This document shows, one piece after another, positions 31,667-55,395 of a stretch of DNA of 64,000 nt. The position numbers were made by a program, and so were the translations under genes. The notes under the pieces are model-generated. The model was not told where the DNA came from, did no database searches, and saw nothing but the letters and a program-made list of their open reading frames with translations. Numbering within the stretch: the stretch's first letter is position 1; the number at the start of each line of letters is the position of its first letter. This stretch comes from Leptolyngbya sp. FACHB-261 (GTDB lineage: Bacteria; Cyanobacteriota; Cyanobacteriia; FACHB-261): NCBI RefSeq assembly GCF_014696065.1, contig NZ_JACJPL010000026.1, forward strand, positions 186,001 through 250,000. The letters run 5' to 3'.

Positions 31667-32281
31667 CTACTCAGTAGCATAAACTTCGCATCGGATAGAA
31701 CTTAGTGGTAATCCGTTGGTGGGTGGGGGCATTGTGCAAACCGAGCCAACCCATAAAACTGGCATTTCAGCCCGCAATTCAATATAATCCCCTGCTTGAG
31801 ATACTGGCGGCTCAACCCGCCAAGAACCATCACTTCGATGCGGCATGTTCATAAACGGATTGAGGCAGGACGAAGGGATCAATAGCTGTGGTGATAATCC
31901 AAGTAGCCTAAGTTCTGCTTCTAACACCTCCTTACACCCTGGTTGATCATGCCCTAAAAATCGATTGAAGTCATGAGAGCAAAACCCACCTGTCCATTCA
32001 TGCACTCCACAAGTATCAGCCGTAATTGTCCACAAAGGACGCATTCGCTGGGTGTAAAGCTTATCTTCAGCAGAGAGCTTCCATGCTTCTTTGACAAATA
32101 GCGAGTATATCAAATCACAACACTCGGTTGGATCGTCTCGATGAAATGAAGAGAAGTCAAAAACTTGCTGTCCTTGTACATCAATGATACGAAGAGTTTG
32201 ACCTGCCTCTAGCGTCCCATGCGCTCCTTGCCCCGGCTCAACTGTAATGGACTGAATCGGTGTGGGTGTCCGTGGGGTCAT
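31667..32281 (-). CDS. DUF1989 (urea-carboxylase-associated) family protein
   Basis: About 204 residues. Hallmarks are LRIIDVQGQQVFDFSSFHRD, the Cys/His cluster in ITADTCGVHEWTGGFCSHDF, NPFMNMP and AGDYIELRAEMPVLW. DUF1989 includes the paired carboxyguanidine deiminase subunits CgdA/CgdB of guanidine degradation, formerly called urea-carboxylase-associated proteins. A single subunit without a carboxylase gene gives no pathway here. ATG at 32281 fits the domain. It forms a one-gene cassette with an attC at each side. A second DUF1989 domain is fused to GcvT at 50552. Confidence 0.82.
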   Translation of the reverse strand: MTPRTPTPIQSITVEPGQGAHGTLEAGQTLRIIDVQGQQVFDFSSFHRDDPTECCDLIYSLFVKEAWKLSAEDKLYTQRMRPLWTITADTCGVHEWTGGFCSHDFNRFLGHDQPGCKEVLEAELRLLGLSPQLLIPSSCLNPFMNMPHRSDGSWRVEPPVSQAGDYIELRAEMPVLWVGSVCTMPPPTNGLPLSSIRCEVYATE

Positions 32282-32347
32282 TTTCAGGTGATGAGGTTTA
32301 GCTCTGTAATGACAACTTCTGACTACTATCCTACAGATCACTCAGCG

Positions 32348-37881: not shown

Positions 37882-38874
37882 TTGTGTGGCATTGCAGGGG
37901 TAATCTATCGCAACCCAACAACCGAGCGCTCTCTCGGTTCTGATCTGCTCACTTTGGTTCGACCATTGGAAAGTCGAGGCCCAGATTCCTGCGGCGTTGC
38001 CTTGTATCGAGGCGATCTAGCTGCTCACCAAGTCAAATTAATGCTGTTTATTGAGCAGCGATTGGCTGAACCTGGGACTGGCGCAGCTTTGCAGCAATGG
38101 TTGGCGCAGTACGCCCAAGGCGAAGCCTTTGAGCCGATTGGCAGCAGTCATCGCCTCATTCTGAGCCTGAACCAGGCCAACGGCCACAGAACTCAAATCA
38201 GTTTGAGAGAACTTAGAACGGCCCTGCAGGACAAGTTTCCGCAGGTGACCGTGATGAGCACCGGCCAGATGCTGGAAATTTACAAATCTGTGGGCTCGGT
38301 GCAGCACTTGACCCAAGATTATGGTCTAGAGAAATTTGCCGGTAGCCACGGCATTGGTCACACGCGCATGGCAACAGAATCGGTGGTGGATACTGACCAC
38401 TGCCATCCGTTCACTGCCGCCGAAGATTTAGCCGTGGTTCATAACGGCCAAATCTCTAATTACTACCGCCTCAGAGCCAATCTGGAGCGAGCCGGCGCTG
38501 TATTTGAAACCGCTAACGATTCTGAGGCCATTGGCCATTACCTGCGCTTCCAATTTTTGCAAGGCAAATCATTAGAAGAAGCCCTAGCCAACCTGGGCAA
38601 AGACTTTGATGGCACCTACACCATTCTGGTTGCCACCCGCGATAAAGTTGCCCTGGCGCGGGATAAGTTTGCGGCTAAACCGGCAGTGATTTACGAATCC
38701 GCCGAGATGGTTGCGATTGCTTCGGAATATCGCGCCTTTCTCAACTTGCCCGGTTTTGATGCCAACGCCACAATTCGCGAACCGGATGCAGGCGAAGTCA
38801 ATGTTTGGCCGGTTTTGAATGTTGCACAGACAGCGCCGTCTATGCCGGAAATCGTGTCTGGAGTGGGAGCATGA
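37882..38874 (+). CDS. mgsA: N-methylglutamate synthase subunit A-like (class II glutamine amidotransferase; MgsA/GlxB)
   Basis: 330 residues. Class II (Ntn) amidotransferase: the chain begins MCGIAGVIYR, so Cys2 is the N-terminal nucleophile; other landmarks are LESRGPDSCGVALY, GHTRMATESVVDTDHCHPF and LAVVHNGQISNYYRLRA. The start must be TTG at 37882, with AGGAGGG upstream, since Cys must follow the initiator. In MgsABC and Glx enzymes this subunit corresponds to the glutaminase part of glutamate synthase and handles gamma-glutamyl amides. The stop overlaps mgsB by ATGA. Opens the mgsABC-gmaS set. Confidence 0.85.
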   Translation: MCGIAGVIYRNPTTERSLGSDLLTLVRPLESRGPDSCGVALYRGDLAAHQVKLMLFIEQRLAEPGTGAALQQWLAQYAQGEAFEPIGSSHRLILSLNQANGHRTQISLRELRTALQDKFPQVTVMSTGQMLEIYKSVGSVQHLTQDYGLEKFAGSHGIGHTRMATESVVDTDHCHPFTAAEDLAVVHNGQISNYYRLRANLERAGAVFETANDSEAIGHYLRFQFLQGKSLEEALANLGKDFDGTYTILVATRDKVALARDKFAAKPAVIYESAEMVAIASEYRAFLNLPGFDANATIREPDAGEVNVWPVLNVAQTAPSMPEIVSGVGA

Positions 38875-39587
38875 GCGAGCAGGTTCTCCTGGATCAGGTA
38901 GTTTTGGACTGCGCCGATTTCAGCACCCGCGAAATCAATCACCAGCTCAAAACTCTGGCCGCTGAAGGCATTACGCAAGTCGAATTGCTCAACCCCGCTG
39001 GACGGCACAATCTAGCCGTGGGGGTCAATGCGCCGCTCAAGATTCGCTTCCGGGGTGCGGTGGGGTACTACTGCGGCGGCTTGAGCGATGGCGTTGAGAT
39101 CGAGGTCTTGGGCTCTTGCGGCTGGTCGGTGGGCGAAAACTTGATGTCAGGCAGCATTACGGTGCAGGGCAATGCCTCGGCCAATGCTGGCGCTACGGCC
39201 CACGGTGGCAAGATCTGCATTTTGGGCAACGCGGGTCCGCGTGCGGGGATTTCCCTCAAAGGCGCGACTCTAATTGTCACCGGCAATGTCGGTTACAGCA
39301 GCGCCTTTATGATGCAGCAGGGCCGCTTCATTATCTGTGGCAATGCCGGTCCCAGTTTGGGCGATTCGATTTACGATGGCGAGATTTTTGTGGGCGGTGA
39401 GATTGATTCTCTCGGGGCGGATGCACGCCTGGAGCCACTGACTGAAGAAGATTGGCATAGACTCAAAGCTGACCTAAACCCCCTGGGCCTGAGCGCTGAG
39501 CAATGCAACTTCAAAAAGATCGTCTGCGCTCAGGAACTCTATCATTTTAAGGCGAAGGATTTTTCCAAATGGAAAGACGCGTACTAA
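38871..39587 (+). CDS. mgsB: N-methylglutamate synthase subunit B-like (GltB C-terminal-type beta-helix; MgsB/GlxC)
   Basis: 238 residues of right-handed beta-helix character with glycine-rich coils: EVLGSCGWSVGENLMSGSIT, GNASANAGATAHGGKICILG, GNAGPRAGISLKG and GNAGPSLGDSIYDGEIFVGG. This GXGXG domain is the C-terminal part of the glutamate synthase large subunit and a separate subunit in N-methylglutamate synthase. Start ATG at 38871 overlaps the mgsA stop. It overlaps mgsC by 19 bp, implying fixed stoichiometry. Confidence 0.88.
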   Translation: MSEQVLLDQVVLDCADFSTREINHQLKTLAAEGITQVELLNPAGRHNLAVGVNAPLKIRFRGAVGYYCGGLSDGVEIEVLGSCGWSVGENLMSGSITVQGNASANAGATAHGGKICILGNAGPRAGISLKGATLIVTGNVGYSSAFMMQQGRFIICGNAGPSLGDSIYDGEIFVGGEIDSLGADARLEPLTEEDWHRLKADLNPLGLSAEQCNFKKIVCAQELYHFKAKDFSKWKDAY

Positions 39588-40876
39588 AGACGAGCAGCAC
39601 GTTCAGCCCAGAGGTGATCGATGCTATTCAGGAGCGAGCAGAATTAGGTCGCTATATTATTCGCGGCTATGGGGCACTGCGCAATGTGCCTCGCCTGGAT
39701 GATTTGGTATTTTTAACTGCTTCTTTGACTCGCTTCCCCTTAGAAGGCTATCGAGAAAAGTGCAATACCAAAACCTTGTTGGGCACTCGTTGCGCCAAGC
39801 GTCCGGTTGAGTTAGATGTCCCGATTACGATTGCCGGGATGAGCTTTGGGGCCCTCTCGCGCAATGCTAAAGTTGCGCTAGGCAGAGCGGCAACTCTTCT
39901 AGGCACCTCTACCACAACTGGCGATGGCGGCATGCTGGCGGCTGAGCGCGAGGCCTCATCAAAATTGGTCTATCAATGTTTGCCTTCCCGCTACGGGTTT
40001 AACCCCAAAGATCTTAAGCAGGCAGATGCGATTGAGATCGTAATTGGTCAAGGGGCAAAACCGGGCGGCGGTGGCCTTTTGTTGGGGCAAAAAGTCAACA
40101 AGGTTGTGGCCGGTATGCGCACCTTGCCGGAGGGCGTGGATCAGCGTTCGCCGTCGCGTCACCCCGACTGGATTGGACCGGATGACTTAAAAATTAAGAT
40201 CGAAGAGTTGCGCGAAGCCACGGATTGGGAAATCCCGATTTACGTCAAAATGGGCGCGACTCGGGTCAAAGACGATGTGAAGTTAGCGGTCAAATCTGGT
40301 GCTGATGTCATCGTGCTAGATGGCATGGAGGGCGGCACTGCTGCTACCCAGAGCATCTTTCAAGAGCACTCCGGCATTCCCACGCTACCGGCCCTAGTCC
40401 AGGCGGTCGAGGCGCTGCAAGAAGCTGGCGTTTATGGCCAGGTGCAACTAGTGATTTCTGGCGGCATTCGCTCGGGTCCCGATGTGGCTAAGGCCTTAGC
40501 TTTGGGTGCTGACGCGGTCAGCATTGGCACGGCCAGTTTGATTGCTATGGGCTGCAACAAGCCGGTTTACATTGAGGACTACGAAAAACTAGGCACAGAG
40601 CCCCACCATTGTCACCATTGCCATACGGGGCTGTGTCCAGTTGGCATTGCCACCCAAGACGAAGATCTGATGGCTCGTCTGCCGGTTGAGGAGGCGACGA
40701 TTTATGTTGCCAACTATCTGCAATCGCTAGTCATGGAATTGCAGAGTTTGACTCGTTCTTGTGGCAAGTCGGATGTGCACAACCTGGAGCGGGAAGACTT
40801 GGTAGCTCTGACGCTCGAAGCCTCGGCAATGGCGAAACTGCCTTTAGCGGGCACAGATTTCGTGATGGGGCAATAA
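39569..40876 (+). CDS. mgsC: N-methylglutamate synthase subunit C-like (FMN/FeS glutamate-synthase domain; MgsC/GlxD)
   Basis: 435 residues, the FMN-binding barrel of glutamate synthase: ITIAGMSFGALSRNAKVALG, GQGAKPGGGGLLLGQKV, IVLDGMEGGTAATQSIFQEH and SGGIRSGPDVAKALALGAD. A cysteine cluster (HHCHHCHTGLCPVGIATQ) would hold a 3Fe-4S centre. It makes the amino-acid product from the gamma-glutamyl donor and a 2-oxoacid, or transfers a methylamino group. With MgsA and MgsB it forms the complete synthase, split into three genes as in methylotrophs and in the rhizobial glx cluster. Confidence 0.9.
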   Translation: MERRVLKTSSTFSPEVIDAIQERAELGRYIIRGYGALRNVPRLDDLVFLTASLTRFPLEGYREKCNTKTLLGTRCAKRPVELDVPITIAGMSFGALSRNAKVALGRAATLLGTSTTTGDGGMLAAEREASSKLVYQCLPSRYGFNPKDLKQADAIEIVIGQGAKPGGGGLLLGQKVNKVVAGMRTLPEGVDQRSPSRHPDWIGPDDLKIKIEELREATDWEIPIYVKMGATRVKDDVKLAVKSGADVIVLDGMEGGTAATQSIFQEHSGIPTLPALVQAVEALQEAGVYGQVQLVISGGIRSGPDVAKALALGADAVSIGTASLIAMGCNKPVYIEDYEKLGTEPHHCHHCHTGLCPVGIATQDEDLMARLPVEEATIYVANYLQSLVMELQSLTRSCGKSDVHNLEREDLVALTLEASAMAKLPLAGTDFVMGQ

Positions 40877-41292: not shown

Positions 41293-42618
41293 GTGGTTAG
41301 CAGCTTAACCAAGGGCCAAACGCTATCTGAATCGGCGAAAGAGCTGAAGCTTGATTTCTTCCTGGTATCCTACACCGACCTGTTGGGTGGGACCCGAGCT
41401 AAGTTGGTTCCGGCTGCCAAGATTGACTCTGTTGAAACCGATGGCGCTTTTTTCGCACCCTTTGCCTCAAACCTGGGACTTGGACCCGATGCTCACGACA
41501 TCGCCGCGATTCCTGACCCAAATTCACTGACAGTTCTGCCCTGGCAACCAAATGTCGGTTGGCTTGCCAGTGATGCTTATCTGGATGGTGAACCCTTTGT
41601 CGCTTCGCCCCGAGTCATTTTCAAGCAGGTACTCAAGCGTTGCCAAGAGTTGGGCTATAGCTACAAAACTGGGGTAGAAGCTGAGTTTTTCCTGCTGAAA
41701 AAGACAGAGCAGGGGTATCAAATTGCCGATTCGCTAGATGTGGCAGTTCGTCCCTGCTACGACCAGATGAACTTGATGCGGCAGTTTGATTTCATCTCAA
41801 CCATTGTGCGCTACATGGAGCAATTGGGTTGGGAACCCTATCAATGCGACCACGAAGATGCCAATGGCCAATTTGAGCTGAATTGGACCTATAGCGATGC
41901 GCTGACCACTGCTGACCGCCATGTGTTTTTCAAGTACATGGTGAAGACCCTGGCCGAGCAACGGGGCCTAGTGGCAACCTTCATGCCCAAGCCGTTTAGC
42001 AATCTCACGGGCAATGGTGGTCACATCCATATGAGCCTCTGGAACGATGGCGCTAATGCCTTTGGCGATGCTGCCGATGAGCTGGGACTATCGCTATTGG
42101 GCTATGAGTTCCTGGGCGGCATCCTGGCCCACGGGCAGGGCTTGTCTGCTCTGTGCAGCCCTACTGTCACCTCCTACAAGCGATTGGGGGCCACGATGAC
42201 CACCTCCGGTAGCACTTGGAGTCCCCGCTACATTTCCTACGGCGGCAACAATCGTACGCACATGGTGCGCATTCCTGAAGGTGGGCGCTTTGAGTGTCGT
42301 CTGGTCGATGGGGCGGTCAATCTCTATCTAGCTCAGGCCGGTCTGCTAGCCGCTGGTTTAGATGGCTTGGCTCAGCACCTCCAGCCCGGTAAACGCCTAG
42401 ACGAAAACATGTTTACCCGTGGCTCCGAATTTCCCGATCTGCCAACCTTGCCCAATAGCTTGATCGAGGCCTTGAACTTCCTGGAGCAGGACGCGTTGCT
42501 GATGGCAACCTTGGGTGAATTGGGTGCCAGAACTTTCTTGGACTTCAAGCATCAAGAATGGAATGCTTACAATGCGATGGTCAGCCCCTGGGAGATGGAG
42601 CAGTACATTAACTGCTGA
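41293..42618 (+). CDS. gmaS: Gamma-glutamylmethylamide synthetase / type III glutamine synthetase-like (GmaS/GlnT)
   Basis: 441 residues in the GlnT/GMAS branch of glutamine synthetases: FFLVSYTDLLGGTRAKLVPA, GVEAEFFLLKK, CDHEDANGQFELNW, MPKPFSNLTGNGGHIHMSLW and the ATP/glutamate region NNRTHMVRIPEGGRFECRL. Such enzymes ligate ammonia, methylamine or other small amines to glutamate; the pairing with mgsABC favours gamma-glutamyl-alkylamide synthesis. GTG start, GGAG upstream, directly downstream of an NtcA-type promoter. Ordinary GlnA in cyanobacteria is about 470 residues and differs in the N-terminus. Which amine is used cannot be read from the sequence. Confidence 0.85.
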   Translation: MVSSLTKGQTLSESAKELKLDFFLVSYTDLLGGTRAKLVPAAKIDSVETDGAFFAPFASNLGLGPDAHDIAAIPDPNSLTVLPWQPNVGWLASDAYLDGEPFVASPRVIFKQVLKRCQELGYSYKTGVEAEFFLLKKTEQGYQIADSLDVAVRPCYDQMNLMRQFDFISTIVRYMEQLGWEPYQCDHEDANGQFELNWTYSDALTTADRHVFFKYMVKTLAEQRGLVATFMPKPFSNLTGNGGHIHMSLWNDGANAFGDAADELGLSLLGYEFLGGILAHGQGLSALCSPTVTSYKRLGATMTTSGSTWSPRYISYGGNNRTHMVRIPEGGRFECRLVDGAVNLYLAQAGLLAAGLDGLAQHLQPGKRLDENMFTRGSEFPDLPTLPNSLIEALNFLEQDALLMATLGELGARTFLDFKHQEWNAYNAMVSPWEMEQYINC

Positions 42619-42704: not shown

Positions 42705-44651
42705 ATGACGATTGCCCGTGAGTTGCCCCAAACGATCAGTGCATCTATCTCGATTCAGCACCCGCTCGATCCGCTAACGCCCGAGGAAATTACGGCGGCA
42801 GTTAGCGTGGTCCGCAAGGCCAAATCCTTAAGCGACCGCGTGCGTTTCGCGACCGTCACCCTGCAAGAACCGGACAAGAGCCTTGTGCTCAATTTCCAAG
42901 CGGGTGACTCGATTGAGCGCGAGGCTTTTCTGGTCATTCTGGATAACACTACCGGGTCAACTTATGAGGCAATCGTCTCCCTGAGCACTAGCGCTGTCGT
43001 TAGCTGGGAGGTCATCCCGAATGTACAGCCCTCGATTCTGTTGGATGAATTCATCGAGTGTGAGCAAGCGGTCAAAGCCAGCCCCGAGTTTCAAGCGGCA
43101 CTAGCCAAACGGGGGATCACTGACCCAGATTTGGTCATGGTCGATCCCTGGTCAGCGGGCAATTTTGGCATGACCGACGAGCAGGGACAGCGCTTGTCAC
43201 GGGCCTTGTGTTGGGTGCGCTCTAGCCCTACTGATAATGGCTATGCGCGACCGATTGAAGGTGTGATTCCGGTAGTGGATCTGAACACCATGACCGTGCT
43301 CCGGGTCGAAGATTACGGCGTGGTGCAATTGCCACCGGAAGCTGGTAACTACACCACCGAGTTTGTGCAGGATTTGCGCCCCGATCTCAAACCGCTAGAG
43401 ATTGTGCAGCCCCAAGGCCCCAGTTTTGAGATCGATGGGTATCAAGTTCGCTGGCAGAAGTGGCAATTTCGCATTGGCTTTACGCCGCGCGAAGGGCTGG
43501 TGCTTTACACGCTTGGCTATGAAGATCAGGGGCGTTTGCGACCGATTTTGTATCGAGCTTCCCTGGCTGAAATGGTAGTGCCCTATGGCGATCCCAGGCC
43601 GCACCACTTCCGTAAGAACGCCTTTGATGTCGGTGAATACGGAGTGGGTACGCTGGCTAACTCGCTCACCTTAGGTTGCGATTGCCTGGGCGAGATTCGC
43701 TACTTTGATGCGTTCATGACCGATAGTCGCGGTCAGGCCGTCACAATTAAAAATGCCGTTTGTCTGCACGAAGAAGACTATGGCATTCTCTGGAAACACA
43801 TGGACTGGCGCACCAATCAAACCGAAGTGCGTCGCTCCCGCCGTCTGGTAGTTTCGTTCATTGCCACGGTTGGCAATTACGAATATGGCTTTTTCTGGTA
43901 TCTCTATCAGGACGCCTCAATCCAGTACGAAGTGAAGCTTACCGGCATCGTCAATACCACGAGCATGGAGCCGGGTGAGACCTCCAAATATGGCACGCTG
44001 ATTGCCCCTCAACTGAATGCGCCTATTCACCAGCACTTCTTTAATGTTCGTCTGGACATGAGCGTCGATGGTGAGTCGAATTCGGTTTACGAGGTCAATA
44101 CCGAAGCCGAACCTATGGGTCCTGATAACCCCTATGGCAATGCTTTCTTTGCCAAATCAACGCTGCTAGAAACTGAACAAGAAGCTCAGCGTGTGATTGA
44201 ACCGATGACCGGCCGTTACTGGAAGATTGTGAACCCATCTGTGCACAACCGGCTGGGTCAGGCTGTAGCTTACAAACTGGTTCCTGGCGAGAACATTCTG
44301 CCGTTCGCGCGTCCAGAATCCAGTCTGCTCAAGCGAGCAGCGTTTACAACCAAGCATCTGTGGGTGACACCCTATCAGCTGCAGGAACGCTTTCCCGCAG
44401 GCGACTACCCCAACCAGCATCCCGGTGGCGAGGGCTTACCCGCCTGGACCCAGGCCAATCGCGCTATTGCCGACACTGATGTGGTTGTGTGGTACAGCTT
44501 TGGTCACCTCCATGTGCCCCGACCCGAAGATTGGCCGGTCATGCCCACCTCCTATGTTGGTTTCATGTTGAAGCCGGTAGGTTTCTTTGAGGCCAGTCCG
44601 GCTCTAGATGTACCGCCCTCAGCGCCTAAACATAAAAGCTGTTGCGATTAG
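42705..44651 (+). CDS. Copper/topaquinone primary amine oxidase
   Basis: 648 residues, the full CuAO length without the optional N-terminal D1 domain. The cofactor Tyr lies in TVGNYEYGFFW (N-Y-D/E consensus, converted to TPQ), the catalytic base Asp in RYFDAFMTDS, and copper ligands in PIHQHFFNV and the C-terminal FGHLHVPRPEDWPVMP. The reaction is RCH2NH2 + O2 + H2O to aldehyde, NH3 and H2O2. No signal peptide, so it is cytosolic. It starts 86 bp after gmaS in the same direction and can provide ammonium for gmaS or the amidotransferase. Substrate range (methylamine, ethylamine, aromatic amines) is not predictable. Confidence 0.93.
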   Translation: MTIARELPQTISASISIQHPLDPLTPEEITAAVSVVRKAKSLSDRVRFATVTLQEPDKSLVLNFQAGDSIEREAFLVILDNTTGSTYEAIVSLSTSAVVSWEVIPNVQPSILLDEFIECEQAVKASPEFQAALAKRGITDPDLVMVDPWSAGNFGMTDEQGQRLSRALCWVRSSPTDNGYARPIEGVIPVVDLNTMTVLRVEDYGVVQLPPEAGNYTTEFVQDLRPDLKPLEIVQPQGPSFEIDGYQVRWQKWQFRIGFTPREGLVLYTLGYEDQGRLRPILYRASLAEMVVPYGDPRPHHFRKNAFDVGEYGVGTLANSLTLGCDCLGEIRYFDAFMTDSRGQAVTIKNAVCLHEEDYGILWKHMDWRTNQTEVRRSRRLVVSFIATVGNYEYGFFWYLYQDASIQYEVKLTGIVNTTSMEPGETSKYGTLIAPQLNAPIHQHFFNVRLDMSVDGESNSVYEVNTEAEPMGPDNPYGNAFFAKSTLLETEQEAQRVIEPMTGRYWKIVNPSVHNRLGQAVAYKLVPGENILPFARPESSLLKRAAFTTKHLWVTPYQLQERFPAGDYPNQHPGGEGLPAWTQANRAIADTDVVVWYSFGHLHVPRPEDWPVMPTSYVGFMLKPVGFFEASPALDVPPSAPKHKSCCD

Positions 44652-44857: not shown

Positions 44858-46288
44858 ATGGCTATCAGCACAAGGTCAGGGGCTGCCTCTGGCCTTAGAT
44901 CAGAGTGTCTTTCTTTCCGAGAGACACTGGCTCAGTCAATTGCAAATATTGCACCTACCGCAACTCCTACGATCAACGCACCTCTAGTGTTCGCCAGTGC
45001 AGGTAAGGGAATGTGGCTGGCTTACTTGATTGCGACGATTGGCCTGGTGTTAGTCGGGATGAGTATCAATCAGTTTGCTCGTCGCTCCGCATCGCCAGGT
45101 TCACTGTATGCCTATATTGCCAGAGGTCTAGGACCCACCGTGGGTGTTCTTTCTGGTTGGGGGCTGGTGATTGCTTATTTGCTAACGGCGATGGCAGTTC
45201 TTTGCGGCTTCTCAAACTACAGCAATGTCTTAGTGAGCCTGCTGGGTTTTCAGATTGCACCGATTTTCTTGTTCGCGCTCTGCGCGGGTCTTTGCTGGTA
45301 TTTTGCCTACAAAGATATTCAGCTATCCACCGTACTCATGCTCGGCCTTGAGGCTGTTTCCATTGGGATGATTCTCATCCTGGCCATCGTTGTTTTGGCA
45401 GGTCATGGCTTCACGATTGATCTGTCTCAGCTGAGCCTTGAGGGAGCTTCGTCTGAGGGCATCCGTTTGGGTCTGGTTCTCGCCGTCTTTAGTTATGTCG
45501 GCTATGAGAGCGCTACAGCGTTAGGTGACGAAGCCAAAGAGCCCTTAACCACGATTCCTCGGGCCGTGGTTCTCAGCGCCGTTCTGGCAGGAACTTTCTT
45601 TGTGATCATCTCCTACGTTGAGGTGCTGGGCTTCAGCGGTTCTGACATCCCTCTAGATAAGAGCGATGCGCCCCTGAGTGTCCTAGCTAATTTAGCGGGA
45701 GTGGGCTTCTTCGGTCCGCTCATTTCGATTGGGGCATTGATTAGCTTCTTCGCTTGTGCCTTGGCTAGCATCAATGCGGGCGGACGGATTCTGTTTTCGA
45801 TGGCCCGCCACGGTATTTTCCATTCCTCAATGGGACAGCCCCATCGTTTAAATGAAACGCCGCACATTGCTGTGACTATGTCATCGCTGATCGTCTTTTT
45901 GATTCCCGCCTCAATGTCCCTATTTGGGGTCAAGGTGCTAGAGATTTACGGCTACTTGGGAACCATTGCCACTTACGGTTTTCTGATGACCTACATTCTG
46001 ATCTCAGTTGCAGCTCCTGTCTACCTTTATCGCGAACGGGCTCTAAAGATCGGTGACATTGTGCTCGCCGTTCTGTCTGTGCTGTTCATGCTTGTTCCGG
46101 TGGTCGGCAGTGTTTATCCTACGCCGCCATCGCCGTTCAATGTATTCCCCTATTTGTTCTTGATGTTTCTGCTGGTTGGTGCAACCTGGTTCTTCTTGTT
46201 ACGCCTTCACTCACCTGAAATTATTGACGAGATGGAGGGCGAACTTGAAGCGATCCACACTCGGTTCAGTGATCTAAAGAAAGTCTAA
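44858..46288 (+). CDS. APC-superfamily amine/amino acid permease
   Basis: 476 residues with about twelve hydrophobic segments. N-terminal half: SIANIAPTATPTINAPLVFA (unwound helix 1 region), SINQFARRSASPGSLYAYIA and GLGPTVGVLSGW; then YVGYESATALGDEAKEPLTT, a standard APC motif in helix 6 and its following loop. This class imports amino acids, ethanolamine, putrescine and other amines. It is placed between the amine oxidase and the ammonium transporter, so it is the likely importer of the locus's substrate. C-terminal tail is short and cytosolic. Confidence 0.9.
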   Translation: MAISTRSGAASGLRSECLSFRETLAQSIANIAPTATPTINAPLVFASAGKGMWLAYLIATIGLVLVGMSINQFARRSASPGSLYAYIARGLGPTVGVLSGWGLVIAYLLTAMAVLCGFSNYSNVLVSLLGFQIAPIFLFALCAGLCWYFAYKDIQLSTVLMLGLEAVSIGMILILAIVVLAGHGFTIDLSQLSLEGASSEGIRLGLVLAVFSYVGYESATALGDEAKEPLTTIPRAVVLSAVLAGTFFVIISYVEVLGFSGSDIPLDKSDAPLSVLANLAGVGFFGPLISIGALISFFACALASINAGGRILFSMARHGIFHSSMGQPHRLNETPHIAVTMSSLIVFLIPASMSLFGVKVLEIYGYLGTIATYGFLMTYILISVAAPVYLYRERALKIGDIVLAVLSVLFMLVPVVGSVYPTPPSPFNVFPYLFLMFLLVGATWFFLLRLHSPEIIDEMEGELEAIHTRFSDLKKV

Positions 46289-47007
46289 AGACAGACCTTT
46301 TCTAAGTTTTAGCTGTCAAAGCTGCTTAGGCAGGAAGCTCAAGCCTTAGTGGTGCTAGGTTGAGGCGCTATGTTGAACAGTAATCTGGCCCCTGCTGCAA
46401 ACCCAGCAATACGTCGAAATCCCCTGCTCATAAGCTTTCTGAGTTACTTATGAACTAATCGTGACATTTGCCAGAAACCTGTGTTATTACATACCTGTGT
46501 GGCCCCGTTGGCTAGGTAAGTGTAGAGCGCAGGTGTGGGTGTCATTGCCCTGACAAACCATTACTTGTCGGTTATTTTAAGCCTCGTCTTCTCTATCTCG
46601 TTCTTTTGAAAAATTGGAAGGTTCACGGCTTCTCAAAACTTAAGTAGCCCTGTTGACAAACCTGTCATAACGAGTGATATAACCTCTATTGACTCTTAAG
46701 ATTGCCCTCCCCCGGTATCTCTGCATTTTCTAGAGCTGCGCTTGCTAGTTTAAGCGTCCTTGAGACTATTGCAATTTGCTGTACGGCTCTCTTCAGGGTC
46801 CGTTTGTTTACTATCGCTGGCACGATAGTAATCGGCGTTGATACCAACGGTTATAGAGACTGTTTGTTGTAGAAAGTTTGGCCTAGGTTGGTGTGAGACT
46901 AGCGGCTTCCAGAGCTGGCTAGTTTCGGTATAGGTGGCAACAAATTATGTCCAGAAGGTTGTGTAGCGTACACGCAGATTGTTGGGAACTTTAGGACGGA
47001 CTTGGAC
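46289..47007. promoter_or_regulatory. Long intergenic region upstream of the ammonium transporter
   Basis: About 720 bp without a gene. Contains TTGACA (46653-46658) and TATAAC (46678-46683) with 19-bp spacing, and the inverted repeat TACTATCG-N6-CGATAGTA (46809-46830), a candidate operator. No GTA-N8-TAC NtcA box was found here by eye. Confidence 0.45.
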
Positions 47008-48387
47008 ATGGAGCCAGAAGCTCAGAAATTTTTAGCGACGTTTGTCTCAGAGTCCTATTACTATTGGGCCTCTGTTTTCATGATCATCATTCACGCTGGT
47101 TTCCTGGCATATGAGGGAGGAGCTTCCCGGTCCAAAAATGTCTTGGCCACGATGGTCAAGAATCTGCTCACCCTGTCCAGTGTTGGCCTAGCTTTCTACT
47201 TTTTTGGCTGGTGGGTTTATAACTCATTTGCCTTATGGCCGATGAACGGCGGTATTCTCGGCCCCTGGACTAATTTCGACGCTAGTGAATCTCTTAAGGC
47301 CATTCAGCCCTATGTAGAAGGCTCCTATCCCTGGTCGTCAGCGCTAGCACCCAACACCGCAGACAATATAACCGGCGTATTCTGGTTTGCCTTTGCCCTG
47401 TTTTCCATGACCACAGCTTCGATCCTGTCGGGCGCGCTGATTGAGCGCGTCAAGATTGGGGCTTACATCGTGTTGTCGATTGTACTGGGTTCCTTTGCCT
47501 GGGTCATTGCTGCTTCCTGGGGTTGGAGTGCCTTTGGTTGGTTCTTGCCTAAGCTGGGTTACCACGATTTCGGTTGCTCCGCAGTCGTGCATGGCTTGTC
47601 TGGCTTCTTCACCTTAGGCGTTCTGCTGAACTTAGGTCCTAGGATTGGTAAGTTCGATGCTCAAGGACGGCCCAGACAAATTCTGCCCCACAATCTGCCG
47701 CTCACGATGGTCGGCTTGATGCTGATCTATGTGGGTTTTTATGCCTTTTTAGCGGCTTGTCTGATCTTCTTGCCGGGCTACACCGTAGAGACCACGATCT
47801 ACAACACGCCCATGACCCTCTCCTCCTTGGGCGTGAGCACCACCCTGGCATTGGCTTCAGGCATCATCGGCTCCTATATCTCCTCGAAAGCCGATCCCTT
47901 CTTCACGATTTCGGGTGGACTGGCTGGCATTATTTCCGTCAGTGCTGGTCTCGACTTGTACCATCCGGCGCTGGTGATTGTGGTTGCTTTCATTGGTGGC
48001 TACACTATGCCTTTGGTTGCCGGTTTTGTTGAGAAAGTAGGGATTGATGATCCAGTCGGTGCGCTCGGTGTGCACGCCTATTGTGGTTTGCTCGGCGTGA
48101 TGATGGTTGGCATCGTGGGAACAGGCTATGTGCAAGGTGAGGGCATTCCTCCCACTAGCTTTACCGGCCAATTTATTGGTGGCTTCATTTGTTTGATCAT
48201 CCTGGGCTTCATCCCTGGTTACGTCGTGAGTTTCATTCTTAAGAAAATCAACCTGCTGCGCGTATCTAGAGAAGAAGAGATTGAGGGTTTAGATCTCTCA
48301 GATCTGGGTGTCCCAGGTTATCCCGAAGGCTCGGTCAGCAGTTTGCCGACTCTCCCTTCAGACACTGCTCAAACCGTCAACCACTGA
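47008..48387 (+). CDS. amt: Divergent ammonium transporter (Amt family)
   Basis: 459 residues, eleven hydrophobic helices. The twin-His pore pair is conserved: His in GCSAVVHGLSG and His in GALGVHAYCGLLG, as is the Asp before the first (YHDF). The usual DFAGGTVVH is replaced by DFGCSAVVH, and the periplasmic recruitment segment differs from cyanobacterial Amt1. The protein belongs to a side branch found with mgs-type clusters and may carry ammonium or methylammonium. Start at ATG 47008 (TTG 47002 possible). No GlnK/PII gene follows. Confidence 0.9.
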   Translation: MEPEAQKFLATFVSESYYYWASVFMIIIHAGFLAYEGGASRSKNVLATMVKNLLTLSSVGLAFYFFGWWVYNSFALWPMNGGILGPWTNFDASESLKAIQPYVEGSYPWSSALAPNTADNITGVFWFAFALFSMTTASILSGALIERVKIGAYIVLSIVLGSFAWVIAASWGWSAFGWFLPKLGYHDFGCSAVVHGLSGFFTLGVLLNLGPRIGKFDAQGRPRQILPHNLPLTMVGLMLIYVGFYAFLAACLIFLPGYTVETTIYNTPMTLSSLGVSTTLALASGIIGSYISSKADPFFTISGGLAGIISVSAGLDLYHPALVIVVAFIGGYTMPLVAGFVEKVGIDDPVGALGVHAYCGLLGVMMVGIVGTGYVQGEGIPPTSFTGQFIGGFICLIILGFIPGYVVSFILKKINLLRVSREEEIEGLDLSDLGVPGYPEGSVSSLPTLPSDTAQTVNH

Positions 48388-48402
48388 TTGCGAGAGAAAC
48401 AA

Positions 48403-48837
48403 ATGACGACGAGTCCATTCAAAACCTCAGAGGAGTTCCTGAAGGCGAAGGGACCGATTTACACCTTTGCGGATAACCCCACAATCATTAGCATTCTGAT
48501 TGGGGTGAGTATCTTGATCCTCCTCTACTTCATTTACTCCTCCTACACGATTAAAAAAGGCGCTCCAGCCCCCCAAAATCCTGCTGTTCTTGGTCTATTA
48601 ATCGCCACCAGTGCGCTTTCTTTTGTCAATTCGGCTTACACCAATAACATTGACAAAGGCCGCGAGACAGCAAAGGGCACTCTCAGCGCTCAAGTTGTGC
48701 CAGCGAAGGGCAAACCGTCTGGCCTAGCCTCACTGTTCGCGTTGCTTACAGCTGGGATCTCTTATACAGGTAGCAGCAGCTTGCGAGCGAAAGGTAAGTC
48801 TAAAGCACGCCGGGGTTCCCGTCGGGGACGGCCCTAA
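48403..48837 (+). CDS. Small membrane protein of unknown family downstream of amt
   Basis: About 144 residues, ATG 15 bp after the amt stop, so co-translated. One strong transmembrane helix (IISILIGVSILILLYFIYSS), a second weaker hydrophobic segment (PAVLGLLIATSALSFVNSA), a further one near residue 115, and a highly basic tail (KGKSKARRGSRRGRP). It has no family I recognise. Its tight link with the divergent Amt suggests an accessory subunit or regulator; PII proteins bind Amt at the cytosolic face and a basic tail could serve a similar purpose. This role is an inference. Confidence 0.7.
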   Translation: MTTSPFKTSEEFLKAKGPIYTFADNPTIISILIGVSILILLYFIYSSYTIKKGAPAPQNPAVLGLLIATSALSFVNSAYTNNIDKGRETAKGTLSAQVVPAKGKPSGLASLFALLTAGISYTGSSSLRAKGKSKARRGSRRGRP

Positions 48838-49014: not shown

Positions 49015-50448
49015 ATGAGTCACAAAAAGTGGGGTTCAGAAGATTTTTGGGGCTTGGATTATGACTTCGATCCCCAGTGGTTGCTAACCCCAGGTCAGCA
49101 AGCTTTACAAGCAAAACTAATCGATGTTTGCGCCAGCACGCTTCGCCCAAACGCGATTGAGTCTGACCGGAATTTAGTTTATCCTCGCGGGAATTTCAAG
49201 GCTCTGGCCTCACTGGGTTTGTTGGGTCTTTTTGTACCGAAGGAATGGGGCGGTTTAGGTGAGAACCATACTTGCGCCGCAATGGTGGTTGAAACCATTG
49301 CTCGCTATGGTTGTCCCAGCACTGCCATGTGCTACACCATGCATCTGGGCGCTGTTGCTGCTGCTTTATTCCGGGCTCACGACAATCCTGAACTTCAGCA
49401 ATTGGTCAAGCGCCTGGATCAGGATGTGCTGATCGGGACGCTGTCCTACTCCGACCCGGAGACAGGCTCCCACTTCTGGTATCCAGTTTCCTCAAAAGCA
49501 GAACGAGTTTCTGCGGGTTGGCAAGTTTTTAAGAAAGCGTCCTGGACAACCTCAGCAGGCTTTGCTGACTGGTACATTGTCCAAACCACCAGCCCAGAAT
49601 TTGCCGGCAATTATTCTGACCTGTCCTGCTTCCTGATCTACGGCGACGAAGTCAAAGCCGAACCTCAAAAGTGGGACGCTTTGGGTTTGCGCGGTAACCA
49701 GTCGGGCACGCTGTTGGTGGATGGGGTCACCGTCCCGGCTGAGCGGATGGTGGGGCCAAAAGGTGACGGCACTTCCTCAAATGATGAGATTGTTGACCCA
49801 TTCTTCCTGCTGTGTTCTTCTGCCTGCTGGAACGGCATTGCGATGGGAGCGATTGACATTGGCAAGCGCCATGTAACCCGCAAGAAGCACGTCGATGTCG
49901 GCATGCGAGTTGCTGATTACCCTACTATTCAGGACTACTTTGGCGAAGGCATCATTGATACCAATGCCTGCCGTTCGTTCACGTTTTCAATGGGCAAGTT
50001 GATGGATGATTTGACCAACAACTGTGATTGGTCACTCCATCGAGATTTGACAGCTTTACCCCGCTCTGTCTATTTGCCTTGGTACTGGCAGATCAAATTC
50101 TCGGCAGCCAAGAACGTCGCTCAGGTCTGTGACAAAATGCTCCATGCCTGCGGTGGTTCTGGCTTCAAGAAAGACATGGAGATCGAGCGCTATCTGCGAG
50201 ATGGCAAGGCGGGTTGGGTAATGGGACCCACTAATGAAGTGCTGCGTCAGTTTGTGGGCAAGCTCGCATTGCTGGGCATGGAGTCTCTGGACTACTGGAA
50301 CCAAGTCGTCAACGAGCGAGTTCTACAAAACGAACTCAAAAAGCTAGATGTTGAGGCCAAGAAAAAGCTAGCAGAGAGTTTGCTAGCACAAGTGGCTGAG
50401 GAAGAAGTTCAAACAGATCAAAAGACATTGCTGAGCAGTACCGTTTGA
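49015..50448 (+). CDS. Acyl-CoA-dehydrogenase-fold flavoprotein lacking the catalytic Glu
   Basis: About 477 residues with ACAD architecture: N-terminal helical part (LGLFVPKEWGGLGENHTCAA), middle beta domain (LIGTLSYSDPETGSHFWYPV and KKASWTTSAGFADWY) and C-terminal helices with ACGGSGFKKDMEIERYLRDG. The usual base, the Glu of IYEGT, aligns with Gly (KAGWVMGPTNEVLR), and the alternative isovaleryl-CoA-type position has Phe. So it is probably not a beta-oxidation enzyme; oxidases and monooxygenases (nitroalkane oxidase, DszC-like) share the fold. In this locus it may oxidise an amine or N-alkylamino acid. Start ATG at 49015. Confidence 0.85.
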   Translation: MSHKKWGSEDFWGLDYDFDPQWLLTPGQQALQAKLIDVCASTLRPNAIESDRNLVYPRGNFKALASLGLLGLFVPKEWGGLGENHTCAAMVVETIARYGCPSTAMCYTMHLGAVAAALFRAHDNPELQQLVKRLDQDVLIGTLSYSDPETGSHFWYPVSSKAERVSAGWQVFKKASWTTSAGFADWYIVQTTSPEFAGNYSDLSCFLIYGDEVKAEPQKWDALGLRGNQSGTLLVDGVTVPAERMVGPKGDGTSSNDEIVDPFFLLCSSACWNGIAMGAIDIGKRHVTRKKHVDVGMRVADYPTIQDYFGEGIIDTNACRSFTFSMGKLMDDLTNNCDWSLHRDLTALPRSVYLPWYWQIKFSAAKNVAQVCDKMLHACGGSGFKKDMEIERYLRDGKAGWVMGPTNEVLRQFVGKLALLGMESLDYWNQVVNERVLQNELKKLDVEAKKKLAESLLAQVAEEEVQTDQKTLLSSTV

Positions 50449-50551: not shown

Positions 50552-52714
50552 ATGTCTTTCCAGACGCTTGCAGTTGAGCCGGGTTCTGTTCGCACCTTTT
50601 ACATTCCTGCTGGTGAGTTGTTCAGTGTTGTTGATCCAGAGGGAGGGCAATCCTTTGCCCTAGAGCTGGGAACCGGTGGTCCTTTAGAAGTCATTTCTAG
50701 TTCAGCCTTGGCCTTGGTCGCTGGAACGCAACTAACCCAGCCTGTCTGTGTGGATAGCCAGGAGCCCAATACGGGTTGCACCCTGCGTGCCCTGGCTGAT
50801 GCCAACCTTCAGGTTGCCGTTCTGGCTCAGAAGCCTGCGTTAACCCCAGGAGCTTTTACACCAGCCACCCCTTTAAAAGTCACTGCTCCCCTGAATGATT
50901 TGCCGGCTCCTTTGGGTGAGGTTCTGGCGGAGTATCGAATTGAGCCTGCGACTGCGATTGCTTACTCGGTGCAGGCGGGACAATATATTCAAATCATCGA
51001 TGTCGAAGGCAGTCAATGCTCTGATTTCTTAGCCTTTGCCGGTGAACATTTCGAACAGGAATTAGATGGCACCGCTACTCGGACTTTGAATGGTATCGCC
51101 GTCCCTCAAGCTGGTTTGCATAGCAAATATTTTTCCCAGCGCTTGCAGCCAATGTTTGAGGTAATTCAAGATACCTGTGGTCGCCATGATAGTTTTCTGC
51201 TGGCCTGCACCGATCGCTATTACGAAGACGCTGGCTACCCTGGTCACGTCAGTTGCAGCCAGAATTTCAACTTGGCTTTAGCCAGCCACGGCGTAACGCC
51301 TCGACCCGGTTGGCCGGCGGTCAATTTCTTCTTCAATACAGCTTCAGATGCGCAGGGCACGATTGCTTCAGGCGAATCTTGGTCGCGTCCTGGCGATTAT
51401 GTTTTACTGCGAGCTAGCCAGGATTTATTGTGCGCTAGTTCCTCTTGCCCGGATGACATTGACCCAGCCAACGGCTGGCAACCTACAGCAATTCATGTCC
51501 GGATTTATGCCGCTGATGCTGGCTTTGAAAGTGCCTTGGGCAGACGGGTTTCTCCTGATCTACCCGTGCGCCTCACCCGTGGCAGTGCGTTCACGCCGCG
51601 CATTCGAACCCTGACCGATTATTTGGTGGAGTACAACGGTTTCTGGGTTCCCAATAGCTTTGCTAATTATGGCCCCCAGGCTGAATATTGGGCCTTGCGC
51701 GAACGGGCGGTCTTGCTGGATCTTTCAGCCCTGCGTAAGTTTGAAGTGTTTGGGCCAGATGCCGAACAGTTGTTGCAAATGGCCTTCTCGCGCAATGTTG
51801 CAGCGTTAGCGATTGGCCAGTCTGCCTACGGCTGTTTGCTCAATCCGCATGGCGGCATTATTGATGATGGCATTGTGTTTCGCTTGAGCGAGACGGCCTA
51901 TCGCTATGTTGGCAATTGTGATACCGATGGCGATTGGTTACGGCGATTAGCTCAGCAGCAGCAATTGCGAGTTGGGGTGCGCTCATCCAGCGACTATCTG
52001 CACAACTTAGCGATTCAGGGGCCGCTGTCGCGCGATGTTTTGCGCCCCTTGGCAAAGTTAGATCCTGGTTTTGCTGCCAACTTATTAGATGAACTCGGTT
52101 ACTTCCGATTCGCCACTGGCACGGTTGCTGATATCCCAGTTTTGATTTCCCGTACGGGCTATACGGGAGAACTGGGCTATGAGTTGTTTGTGCATCCTGG
52201 GCAGGGCGAAGCGCTGTGGGACGCATTGCTACAGGCAGGGGAGCCTGAAGGTCTCATGCCGATGGGAATGTTAGCATTGGAGCGGGCTCGAATTGAAGCA
52301 GGGCTTCTAGCGGCGGGCCGTGAATTTGATGATTTGATTTCTCCCTACCAGGCCGGTATCAGCTGGGCAGTTGCCTTGAAGAAACCGGAATTAATTGGTA
52401 AAGCAGCGCTGGAAAAACTGAAGGAGCGGCCACCCAAAGTAGCCGTTGGTCTGGTGTTAGAGGGCAATGAAGTTGCCGAACATGGTCAATGTATTTATCC
52501 GGTTGAGGAACGCTGGCGAGTGGGTGTAATCACCAGTGCAACCTTCTCACCCATTTTGAACAAAAGTATTGCTCTGGCTCAAGTTGCGCCTGAATATGCA
52601 ACCCCAGGCAGTCAATTAGAAGTCGGGTTTGTTGATGGCATGAAACGCCGGGTTAAAGCCACGGTCGGGCCGTTAGCTGCTTATGATCCAACCAAGAGTC
52701 GGGTGCGAGCATGA
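50552..52714 (+). CDS. DUF1989-GcvT fusion protein
   Basis: 720 residues. Residues 1-110 form a short cupin-like DUF1989-related part; 125-335 is a full DUF1989 domain (YIQIIDVEGSQCSDFLAFAG, DTCGRHDSFLLACTD, ESWSRPGDYVLLRAS, CSSCPDD read as SSCPDDIDPANGW); 345-715 is a GcvT-like aminomethyltransferase (VLLDLSALRKFEVFGPDAEQ, SRTGYTGELGYELFV and GLLAAGREFDDLISPYQAG). GcvT folds bind tetrahydrofolate and accept C1 groups from amines; the same fold forms the C-terminal half of sarcosine oxidase alpha and MgdC. DUF1989 relatives cleave C-N bonds of carboxyguanidine. Overlaps the SoxG-like gene (ATGA). Confidence 0.88.
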   Translation: MSFQTLAVEPGSVRTFYIPAGELFSVVDPEGGQSFALELGTGGPLEVISSSALALVAGTQLTQPVCVDSQEPNTGCTLRALADANLQVAVLAQKPALTPGAFTPATPLKVTAPLNDLPAPLGEVLAEYRIEPATAIAYSVQAGQYIQIIDVEGSQCSDFLAFAGEHFEQELDGTATRTLNGIAVPQAGLHSKYFSQRLQPMFEVIQDTCGRHDSFLLACTDRYYEDAGYPGHVSCSQNFNLALASHGVTPRPGWPAVNFFFNTASDAQGTIASGESWSRPGDYVLLRASQDLLCASSSCPDDIDPANGWQPTAIHVRIYAADAGFESALGRRVSPDLPVRLTRGSAFTPRIRTLTDYLVEYNGFWVPNSFANYGPQAEYWALRERAVLLDLSALRKFEVFGPDAEQLLQMAFSRNVAALAIGQSAYGCLLNPHGGIIDDGIVFRLSETAYRYVGNCDTDGDWLRRLAQQQQLRVGVRSSSDYLHNLAIQGPLSRDVLRPLAKLDPGFAANLLDELGYFRFATGTVADIPVLISRTGYTGELGYELFVHPGQGEALWDALLQAGEPEGLMPMGMLALERARIEAGLLAAGREFDDLISPYQAGISWAVALKKPELIGKAALEKLKERPPKVAVGLVLEGNEVAEHGQCIYPVEERWRVGVITSATFSPILNKSIALAQVAPEYATPGSQLEVGFVDGMKRRVKATVGPLAAYDPTKSRVRA

Positions 52715-53220
52715 CGAGTGCCTCAATTGCGCAGCAGAATTGGCTGGACCTGACTGGCTATCAGTTATGGGATTTAGTTGGGATTGATGGTTTGCAGGTT
52801 ACTACCAGCTTGGTAGGCGATCTAGCGGGGAGAATTGCTCCATTTCAATCTTTTGAGACCACGCTGGATCAGCAAGCCTGCTCGGTGTTGCGTTTGTGTG
52901 AGGGCAATTTTCGCTTTGGTTTGCAGGGCGATTCTACTTTTTTTGAGCAGGTTAATTTGGCAGACCAACGGGTTTGGCTGCGTCGCTGCAAGCAAATGAC
53001 GGCGATTGCTATGCCTGAAGCTGAAGGTTTAGCGCTATTGCCAAAAATTGCAGTTGCTAAACTGCCGCACCGTTTGGAGGGACTGCAACCTAACTGTGCA
53101 GCTCCTAGCCGGATTGATGGCATCTCTGTTTTGATTTGGCGGCATCTTTACCAGGGTCAAGCAGTGTTTGAACTGCAAATGGCGGCTAAGGATGCTGCGA
53201 CAATTCGAGCAATCTGTTGA
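52711..53220 (+). CDS. Sarcosine oxidase gamma-like (SoxG/MgdD family) subunit
   Basis: 169 residues, ATG overlapping the stop of the DUF1989-GcvT gene. Landmarks of the SoxG/GcvT-like family are FRFGLQGDSTFFEQVNLADQ-type barrel segments, RIDGISVLIWRHLYQGQAVF and a C-terminal amphipathic helix AAKDAATIRAIC. In heterotetrameric sarcosine oxidase and N-methylglutamate dehydrogenase the gamma subunit packs against the GcvT half of the alpha subunit. No SoxB (beta) or SoxD (delta) gene is present, so the pair here would be a folate-dependent module without the usual flavin dehydrogenase partner. Confidence 0.68.
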   Translation: MTSASIAQQNWLDLTGYQLWDLVGIDGLQVTTSLVGDLAGRIAPFQSFETTLDQQACSVLRLCEGNFRFGLQGDSTFFEQVNLADQRVWLRRCKQMTAIAMPEAEGLALLPKIAVAKLPHRLEGLQPNCAAPSRIDGISVLIWRHLYQGQAVFELQMAAKDAATIRAIC

Positions 53221-54352: not shown

Positions 54353-54557
54353 TACAAGGAATTAATTGAAATCGGTTGTTAAACTAGCCTCATTGCTTTT
54401 GCAGGGCTACCATTTCAGGCTGGGGCTTTAATCATTGACCGAAATCAAGTTTGTATAGGGCATCAATGAATGGCTGGTTTAAGACTGGACTGACCTCTAG
54501 TTCTCTGCTACTGTCGTGGCATTAAAGTTACAAAACTAACCAGCAAAGGAATTAGTG

Positions 54558-54953
54558 ATGGCACTCCGCGAGCGCGTTCAGGAACTTCTGGATTTCTTGA
54601 AAACTAGTCCGCCCGCAGAGCAAGTATATGAGCGATTTTACGCTGAGGATGTAGTGGTTCAAGAGAACTTGCAGGCGCCTAGAGTTGGGCGAGCGATGAG
54701 TATTGAGCGACAGTTGCGCATGAATGCCAATGTGAAAGAGGTGCATGATTTCAAGATTGGCCCTGTCTTAGTGGATGGCGATCATTCAGTGGTTGAAATG
54801 CATATAGACTTGACAACTCTGGATGGTTATCGCATCCGGATTGAGGAGTTAGGCATGCAAACCTGGAAGGATGGGCTAATTGTTCGTGAACGTTTTTTCT
54901 ATGACCCCAGTAGTTTTCAGGGCAAGTCTAAAGAAATTAATGATGTGCATTAG
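54558..54953 (+). CDS. SnoaL/NTF2-like protein
   Basis: 131 residues with an NTF2-like cone fold: helix RERVQELLDFLKTSPPAEQV, YERFYAEDVVVQENLQAPRV, then HSVVEMHIDLTTLDGYRIRI and ETW-type closing strand (GMQTWKDGLIVRERFFYDP). Family members are isomerases, dehydratases or binding proteins. ATG at 54558 (an upstream in-frame GTG is adjacent). The first of three small + strand genes; the function is unknown. Confidence 0.75.
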   Translation: MALRERVQELLDFLKTSPPAEQVYERFYAEDVVVQENLQAPRVGRAMSIERQLRMNANVKEVHDFKIGPVLVDGDHSVVEMHIDLTTLDGYRIRIEELGMQTWKDGLIVRERFFYDPSSFQGKSKEINDVH

Positions 54954-54999
54954 TTTCACTAGTAAGTGACAAGTTAGGTTCGTTTCGTAGGGATTCAGA

Positions 55000-55395
55000 A
55001 TGGTCAAGCTTGTGTACTGCATTCGGAAACGGTCGGATTTAACCAGCGAGGAGTTTTACCACTACTGGCAACACAAACATGGTGCGTTGATCCGTAGCCT
55101 GGCTCAAAAGATTCGGGCTCAGAAGTATATCCAAAGCCACACGCTGGACACGCCGATTAATCAGGTACTGGTGCAATCGCGAGGGCTAGATCCAACACCA
55201 CCCTATGACGGTGTGACTGAAATTTGGTGGGAAAGTATGGAAGAGTTTCTAGCCGGGGTAAATTCACCAGAAGGGATGGAAGCTGCTCAGCAGTACATTG
55301 CGGACGAGGCCAACTTCGTTGATTTTTCACAATCGCGCGCGCTCTTGGCTGAAGAGCACACGATCTTTGACTTTTCGGCAAAGGGTGAGAACTAG
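55000..55395 (+). CDS. EthD-domain protein (dimeric alpha/beta barrel)
   Basis: 131 residues. Starts MVKLVYCIRKRSDLTSEEFY, then HYWQHKHGALIRSLAQKI, the typical EthD opening, and closes with VTEIWWESMEEFLAG. EthD proteins are small ferredoxin-like barrels found with ether and aromatic degradation operons; some are decarboxylases or isomerases. Follows the NTF2-like gene by 46 bp. Confidence 0.85.
   Translation: MVKLVYCIRKRSDLTSEEFYHYWQHKHGALIRSLAQKIRAQKYIQSHTLDTPINQVLVQSRGLDPTPPYDGVTEIWWESMEEFLAGVNSPEGMEAAQQYIADEANFVDFSQSRALLAEEHTIFDFSAKGEN

Follow-up and report, generated by a model that had tools for sequence, protein, structure and literature searches.

A glutamate-less acyl-CoA dehydrogenase-fold protein beside a TMAO demethylase relative: a candidate two-component amine N-oxygenase

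Genomes and metagenomes are screened for trimethylamine oxidation with tmm as the marker gene. Its product, Tmm, is a single-component, NADPH-using enzyme that works without a separate reductase. The isobutylamine N-hydroxylase VlmH is akin to the acyl-CoA dehydrogenases (ACADs), and nitroalkane oxidase uses as its base an Asp at the site of the MCAD Glu. The ACAD fold belongs to the definition of the group D flavin monooxygenases (PMC10696468). ACAD-fold group D enzymes of A. baylyi, together with a separate reductase, are reported to oxidise dimethyl sulfide to DMSO, a reaction that is also carried out by Tmm (PMC13352529). As dimethyl sulfide is thus oxidised by both kinds of enzyme, N-oxidation of a small methylamine by an ACAD-fold protein, as proposed below, is chemically plausible.

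The protein considered here is encoded in a window of 64,000 nucleotides from Leptolyngbya sp. FACHB-261, the whole stretch of DNA that was analysed (Table 1). Its Pfam domains are those of ACADs only, with Acyl-CoA_dh_N at 57.8 bits (cut-off 22.9) and Acyl-CoA_dh_1 at 32.7 bits (cut-off 22.4); the ACAD middle domain (25.3) and Acyl-CoA_dh_2 (22.0) both stay under their own cut-offs, and no FMO (Tmm-type) sequence is present. An AlphaFold2 model made from 41 family sequences has the ACAD fold (pLDDT 80.5, pTM 0.82) and matches 4kto with Z 41.6 and rmsd 2.5 over 368 residues. None of the curated NCBIfam ACAD cut-offs is reached. The best match, the Rv1679 FadE16 family (NF049984), gives 198 bits, far under its cut-off of 600, and a search for a FadE16 member above that cut-off, for a reading of its active site, yielded none. 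The ranking of similar folds was rejected as evidence of function: the top Foldseek match, 5z8t, is titled a flavin-containing monooxygenase, and the Foldseek rows after it, as well as the VIA ranking, are mostly dehydrogenases.

Table 1. Genes and sites of the amine-related region of the window
Feature	Coordinates	Strand	Basis or remark
Class II glutamine amidotransferase-like ORF, presumably mgsA (candidate)	37882..38874	+	matched in other loci
GXGXG-like ORF, taken to be mgsB (candidate)	38805..39587	+	matched in other loci
FMN glutamate-synthase domain protein, candidate mgsC	39569..40876	+	PF01645, 324 bits
Type III glutamine synthetase (GSIII) family, candidate gamma-glutamylmethylamide synthetase	41293..42618	+	TIGR03105, 589 bits, above cut-off
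Copper primary-amine oxidase	42705..44651	+	NF008559, 1025 bits, above cut-off
APC-family permease	44858..46288	+	no match to TMAO permease model
Amt-family transporter	47002..48387	+	
149-aa small protein	48388..48837	+	directly after Amt
Glu-less ACAD-fold protein, proposed amine N-oxygenase	49015..50448	+	477 aa, reading frame open from ATG 49015
Codons of Phe263-Phe264, isovaleryl-CoA dehydrogenase Glu site	49801..49806	+	alignment
Codon of Gly404, MCAD-type Glu site	50224..50226	+	alignment
Tdm-like protein, DUF1989 + GcvT, 720 aa	50552..52714	+	NF053776, 862 bits; cut-off of 1100 not reached
169-aa protein	52711..53220	+	overlaps end of Tdm gene; no Pfam or NCBIfam match

Both catalytic sites of the ACADs are empty in this protein. 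In HMMER alignments to 2dvl, 8i4p and 7w0j, Gly404 of the motif VMGPTNEV occupies the column of the IYEGT-type Glu. The Glu of an isovaleryl-CoA dehydrogenase falls on Phe263 or Phe264, according to the placement of a one-residue gap, with Phe in either case. This isovaleryl-CoA dehydrogenase reference was a Rhizobium plasmid protein; a motif search of the family's loci gave none. Across the query and 81 aligned relatives, all 82 sequences have Gly at position 404 and Phe at 263, and 81 have Phe at 264; the invariance of Gly404 and Phe263 marks a fixed trait of the family rather than a sequencing slip. Trp155, Tyr156, Trp272 and Trp401 are invariant aromatic residues. The first-pass annotation had read Gly at the first site and Phe at the second from the sequence alone and had asked for alignment to ACADs and DszC, which bears out both readings and places Met403 at DszC His391. 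The Glu of acyl-CoA dehydrogenase enzymes is therefore lacking at either site, as are the Asp of nitroalkane oxidase and the DszC-type His391/Asp392, and the loss of both Glu bases is consistent with chemistry in which no proton is taken from carbon. A conserved His110 was considered as a mark of monooxygenases and rejected because it aligns with DszC His97 and not His92; isovaleryl-type dehydrogenases also have His in this column, so that the residue proves nothing.

In a descent tree of only 21 rows with long branches, the family lies on a branch of its own, apart from DszC, TdsC, MsuC and SfnB and outside the DszC/MsuC/SfnB clade. It resembles group D (DszC, MsuC, HpaB, HsaA and ADP1 Dms1-3) in its ACAD fold, which agrees with the group's definition, in the reductase that accompanies it at most non-cyanobacterial loci and in its proposed small heteroatom substrate, but its identity to DszC, TdsC and MsuC is only 18-19%. 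The nearest sampled relative, at 32% identity and with 98/97 support, is an ACAD on a Methylocystis plasmid (L184:6974-8155). This protein has the motifs MGP(S/T)N, HWWY/HFWY and TTSAG in common with the family but belongs to a sulfone/sulfonate monooxygenase cluster with no Tdm annotated within 7 kb. It adjoins SfnG in a cluster with an MsuE FMN reductase, SsuD and an MsuC-like protein, so that the nearest outside neighbour also accompanies reduced-flavin monooxygenases of small methyl compounds. The MGP-motif protein of this plasmid, from Methylocystis iwaonis, is itself a candidate oxidiser of dimethyl sulfide or DMSO. A further parallel is VlmH with its reductase VlmR, a two-component flavin N-oxidation of an alkylamine (PMC7347517), although that system serves a natural-product pathway and acts on a primary amine.

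A scan of genome contigs confirmed 108 relatives, of which the best 80 were kept (68-89% identity). Record titles place these 80 in cyanobacteria, Proteobacteria, Acidobacteria, Latescibacterota, Gemmatimonadota, Armatimonadetes and Obscuribacterales, and we judge such identity across phyla to be high conservation for an ACAD. Among 292 genomes drawn from the phylum of the window, its own genome was the sole carrier, so the trait is rare in cyanobacteria. No plasmid copy of the protein was found at E 1e-60, and phage matches are ordinary ACADs, 22-27% identical among the matches listed. Paralogs at 61% and 46% identity occur in G013 and G300, distant from Tdm. Both (L144:6946-8346 at 61%, L143:7155-8564 at 46%) keep the MGPTNE motif with no Tdm nearby, and family substrates may therefore extend beyond the Tdm-linked one.

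The most consistent companion of the gene is Tdm, the TMAO demethylase. Forty carrier genomes were taken from 40 of the 80 loci, picked for locus length and spread and not for Tdm. A Tdm relative is present in 40 of 41 ACAD-carrying genomes, above the NF053776 cut-off in 19 of 41, against a background of 25 of 289 genomes in the class of G016 and 15 of 369 in the class of G036. In the one exception (G005, Leptolyngbya BC1307), only two short stretches next to the ACAD gene match Tdm (L014:13467-14110), and the Tdm gene is apparently broken. ACAD and Tdm lie at most 5 kb apart in four newly found carriers (G074, G111, G300 and G714). Many proteobacterial Tdm partners score above the cut-off, for instance 1217 bits in L044 and 1190 in L060. 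The Tdm-like protein of the window keeps the metal site (Cys219, His232, Cys235, Cys299 and Asp302), and across the Tdm partners the Zn/Fe-site columns hold Cys and His in 59 of 59 and Asp in 58 of 59. The same series of Cys, His, Cys, Cys and Asp is named for M. silvestris Tdm in the accessible text of PMC12560246. In a Tdm tree of 94 rows, the cyanobacterial proteins form a separate clade on a long branch (1.1), which, together with the score of the window protein below the cut-off, suggests that the substrate of the window protein may differ.

Other genes of the window recur with Tdm as well. The 169-aa protein is found again beside Tdm in cyanobacteria and in L037 (36-52% identity), and relatives of the Amt transporter also adjoin Tdm in Tmm-type clusters such as L084. 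A putative second, stand-alone DUF1989-type protein was noticed by eye at 31667-32341 on the minus strand, about 18 kb from the Tdm-like gene, and SnoaL-like and EthD-family small proteins adjoin each other at 54555-55395. Elsewhere in the same genome (L003, C31:86198), a methanesulfinate-monooxygenase-like protein scores 480 bits to 6u76. Near the ACAD gene, a PhyH-family dioxygenase and a family 3 solute-binding protein each occur in 14 cyanobacterial loci (e.g. L004:6588-7493), and a MOSC-domain protein (MOSC + MOSC_N) in five (L004, L006, L017, L023 and L031); MOSC proteins can act on N-hydroxylated compounds. In G074, a choline-kinase-family gene (PF01633; L146:4449-5333) lies upstream of the ACAD gene.

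Outside cyanobacteria, the gene stands in recognisable operons. For example, the order in Azoarcus L1K30 (L075) is GSIII, mgsABC-like ORFs, FolB, TMAO permease (846 bits, cut-off 690), DmmA family, ferredoxin-type reductase, HODM alpha, ACAD (L075:9971-11353), Flavin_Reduct (L075:11374-11928) and Tdm (1073 bits). Loci of Zoogloea, Xanthobacter, Aquabacter and Labrys are close variants, and in Azoarcus and Zoogloea the ACAD gene sits inside TMAO permease-Dmm-ACAD-flavin reductase-Tdm operons. Neighbours within 3 kb were counted in 53 of the 80 loci (39 of 53 non-cyanobacterial and 14 of 27 cyanobacterial), the 27 loci that were too short being dropped. Of the 39 non-cyanobacterial loci, 31 have an HpaC/FerA-type flavin reductase no more than 3 kb from the ACAD gene, and 33 have one within 10 kb; the 14 cyanobacterial loci, which extend at least 3 kb to either side, have none within 3 kb. 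The same type of reductase was found at none of 22 control loci, nor in the plasmid clusters L084-L086; the controls are Tdm loci whose genomes give a long match to Tmm, and they do not always include Tmm within the stretch. The contrast between 31 of 39 and 0 of 22 indicates that the reductase accompanies the ACAD-fold protein and not Tdm. The genome of the window has only a distant flavin reductase, encoded elsewhere (G000:C29), with 27% identity to that of Azoarcus and 38% to that of Obscuribacterales.

In the canonical clusters L084 and L085, Tmm lies directly before Tdm, in the place that the ACAD gene takes in the window. This Tmm is an FMO (763 bits to 8b2d, 758 to 2xve and 733 to 5ipy). 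The ACAD-fold protein is thus like Tmm (2xve, 5ipy) in its place beside Tdm, in its company of Amt, Dmm and Mgs and in its proposed reaction; it differs in its unrelated fold and sequence, and the two rarely coexist. Among 40 Tdm-positive genomes from two classes, which include the centre genomes G016 and G036, chosen as ACAD-positive, and G013, known to be so before the draw, 23 have Tmm, 7 have ACAD, none has both and 10 have neither. The exclusion has a Fisher p of 0.0010, or 0.0060 without the two centre genomes and 0.0087 when the short and broken Tmm match of G117 is left out too; these counts describe associations among genomes that, where related, are not independent observations. Tmm is also missing from the genome of the window and from 34 of the 40 ACAD genomes, although some genomes are incomplete MAGs and such absences are soft. 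In the other six the two co-occur, in two of them at the same locus (L039 and L049), with Tmm between ACAD and Tdm. When genomes with ACAD only are labelled on the Tdm tree of 94 rows, the label changes nine times, at least five of them forced by supported branches, so it appears that the demethylase was conserved while its oxygenase partner was exchanged several times. The 10 Tdm genomes with neither oxygenase may depend on imported TMAO, which can feed Tdm; the TMAO permease in the operons means that Tdm can be supplied without any oxygenase.

Taken together, these observations make it probable that the ACAD-fold protein serves as oxygenase in a two-component flavin monooxygenase that N-oxidises trimethylamine, or a close tertiary methylamine, in the role of Tmm. 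By its probable working it would be classed as an ACAD-fold two-component flavin monooxygenase, and neither as an acyl-CoA dehydrogenase nor as a Tmm. A flavin reductase would supply reduced flavin, which the protein would take up in the ACAD flavin site. Oxygen would then react with the bound flavin to form a C4a-hydroperoxyflavin, and this would oxidise the nitrogen of the amine to the N-oxide. The product, TMAO or a related N-oxide, would be passed to Tdm, after which the heme N-demethylase (Dmm/HODM) would yield methylamine for processing by GmaS/Mgs or an amine oxidase. While the fold, the missing bases, the genomic linkage and the alternation with Tmm are observed, the cofactor, substrate, product and catalytic steps are inferred from them. 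For the proteobacterial operons, trimethylamine is the most likely substrate; for cyanobacteria this is less sure. No link of an ACAD-fold protein to trimethylamine was found in the titles and passages of the literature covered, a scope outside which most subscription papers and all bioRxiv preprints fell. The first-pass annotation had suggested an oxidase or monooxygenase of an amine or amino acid rather than of an acyl-CoA. Its monooxygenase half is favoured by the company of Tdm, the reductase and the Dmm and TMAO permease operons; an oxidase like nitroalkane oxidase is disfavoured by the Gly in place of its Asp.

Several points count against this N-oxygenase assignment, and some of them lend weight to other readings. 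Besides the six genomes in which Tmm coexists, these are the lack of an adjoining reductase in cyanobacteria, the window Tdm below its cut-off, the separation from DszC, MsuC and SfnB with the absence of His391, the import of TMAO and the scarcity of HODM in cyanobacterial carriers, where a Dmm-type HODM alpha occurs in 3 of 12 ACAD genomes (the own genome included), plus one fragment. It is possible, if rather unlikely, that the same chemistry serves another tertiary or N-methylated amine whose N-oxide is cleaved by the Tdm relative, above all in cyanobacteria, whose clusters often include a primary-amine oxidase. The divergent Tdm clade with the window protein under the TMAO-demethylase cut-off, the coexisting Tmm and the copper amine oxidase, which lies beside the ACAD gene in cyanobacterial loci only, would agree with such a substrate; the conserved Tdm metal-site residues, as well as the many proteobacterial partners above that cut-off, with operons that include Dmm and TMAO permease, point back to trimethylamine.

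An enzyme further downstream, that is, an oxidase or dehydrogenase acting on dimethylamine, methylamine or N-methylglutamate, is improbable. The mgs and GSIII genes nearby in the window and several other loci, the 46% paralog near mgs-like genes with no Tdm at hand and the absence of HODM from most cyanobacterial ACAD genomes could be read in this way, but the gene alternates with Tmm and not with Dmm, HODM is also present in 24 of the 39 non-cyanobacterial loci and the reductase suits a monooxygenase. The mgs genes, moreover, lie near Tmm-type and ACAD-type clusters alike, and for this reason, along with the tracking of Tdm and the alternation with Tmm, N-methylglutamate and gamma-glutamyl-alkylamides, the substrates put forward at first, are not favoured. 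Least credible, and very unlikely, is an acyl-CoA or acyl-carrier enzyme with an unusual base or another reaction type, for which the Tdm linkage would be regulatory or indirect. The top profile scores of the protein are indeed to ACAD families, an acyl-CoA synthetase gene is close to the 61% paralog, and a Glu-less family, the 3-sulfinopropanoyl-CoA desulfinases, exists; against this stand the unreached NCBIfam cut-offs, the two Glu sites empty in all relatives and the annotated recurrent clusters, in which no acyl-CoA, ETF or CoA-transferase gene was seen.

On balance, the evidence leans towards a second class of trimethylamine monooxygenase that arose independently, ACAD-fold and reductase-fed. 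Such enzymes would have taken the place of the FMO Tmm repeatedly, across at least six phyla, and would allow cyanobacteria and other bacteria that pass for Tmm-negative to use trimethylamine. If so, trimethylamine oxidation would have been overlooked in groups such as cyanobacteria, Zoogloeaceae, Xanthobacteraceae, Latescibacterota and Gemmatimonadota, and an entry enzyme would be at hand for genomes that have Tdm without Tmm. Database entries named 'acyl-CoA dehydrogenase' that contain the MGPTNE motif gain a testable function, and tertiary-amine N-oxidation would be added to the repertoire of the ACAD fold in primary metabolism.
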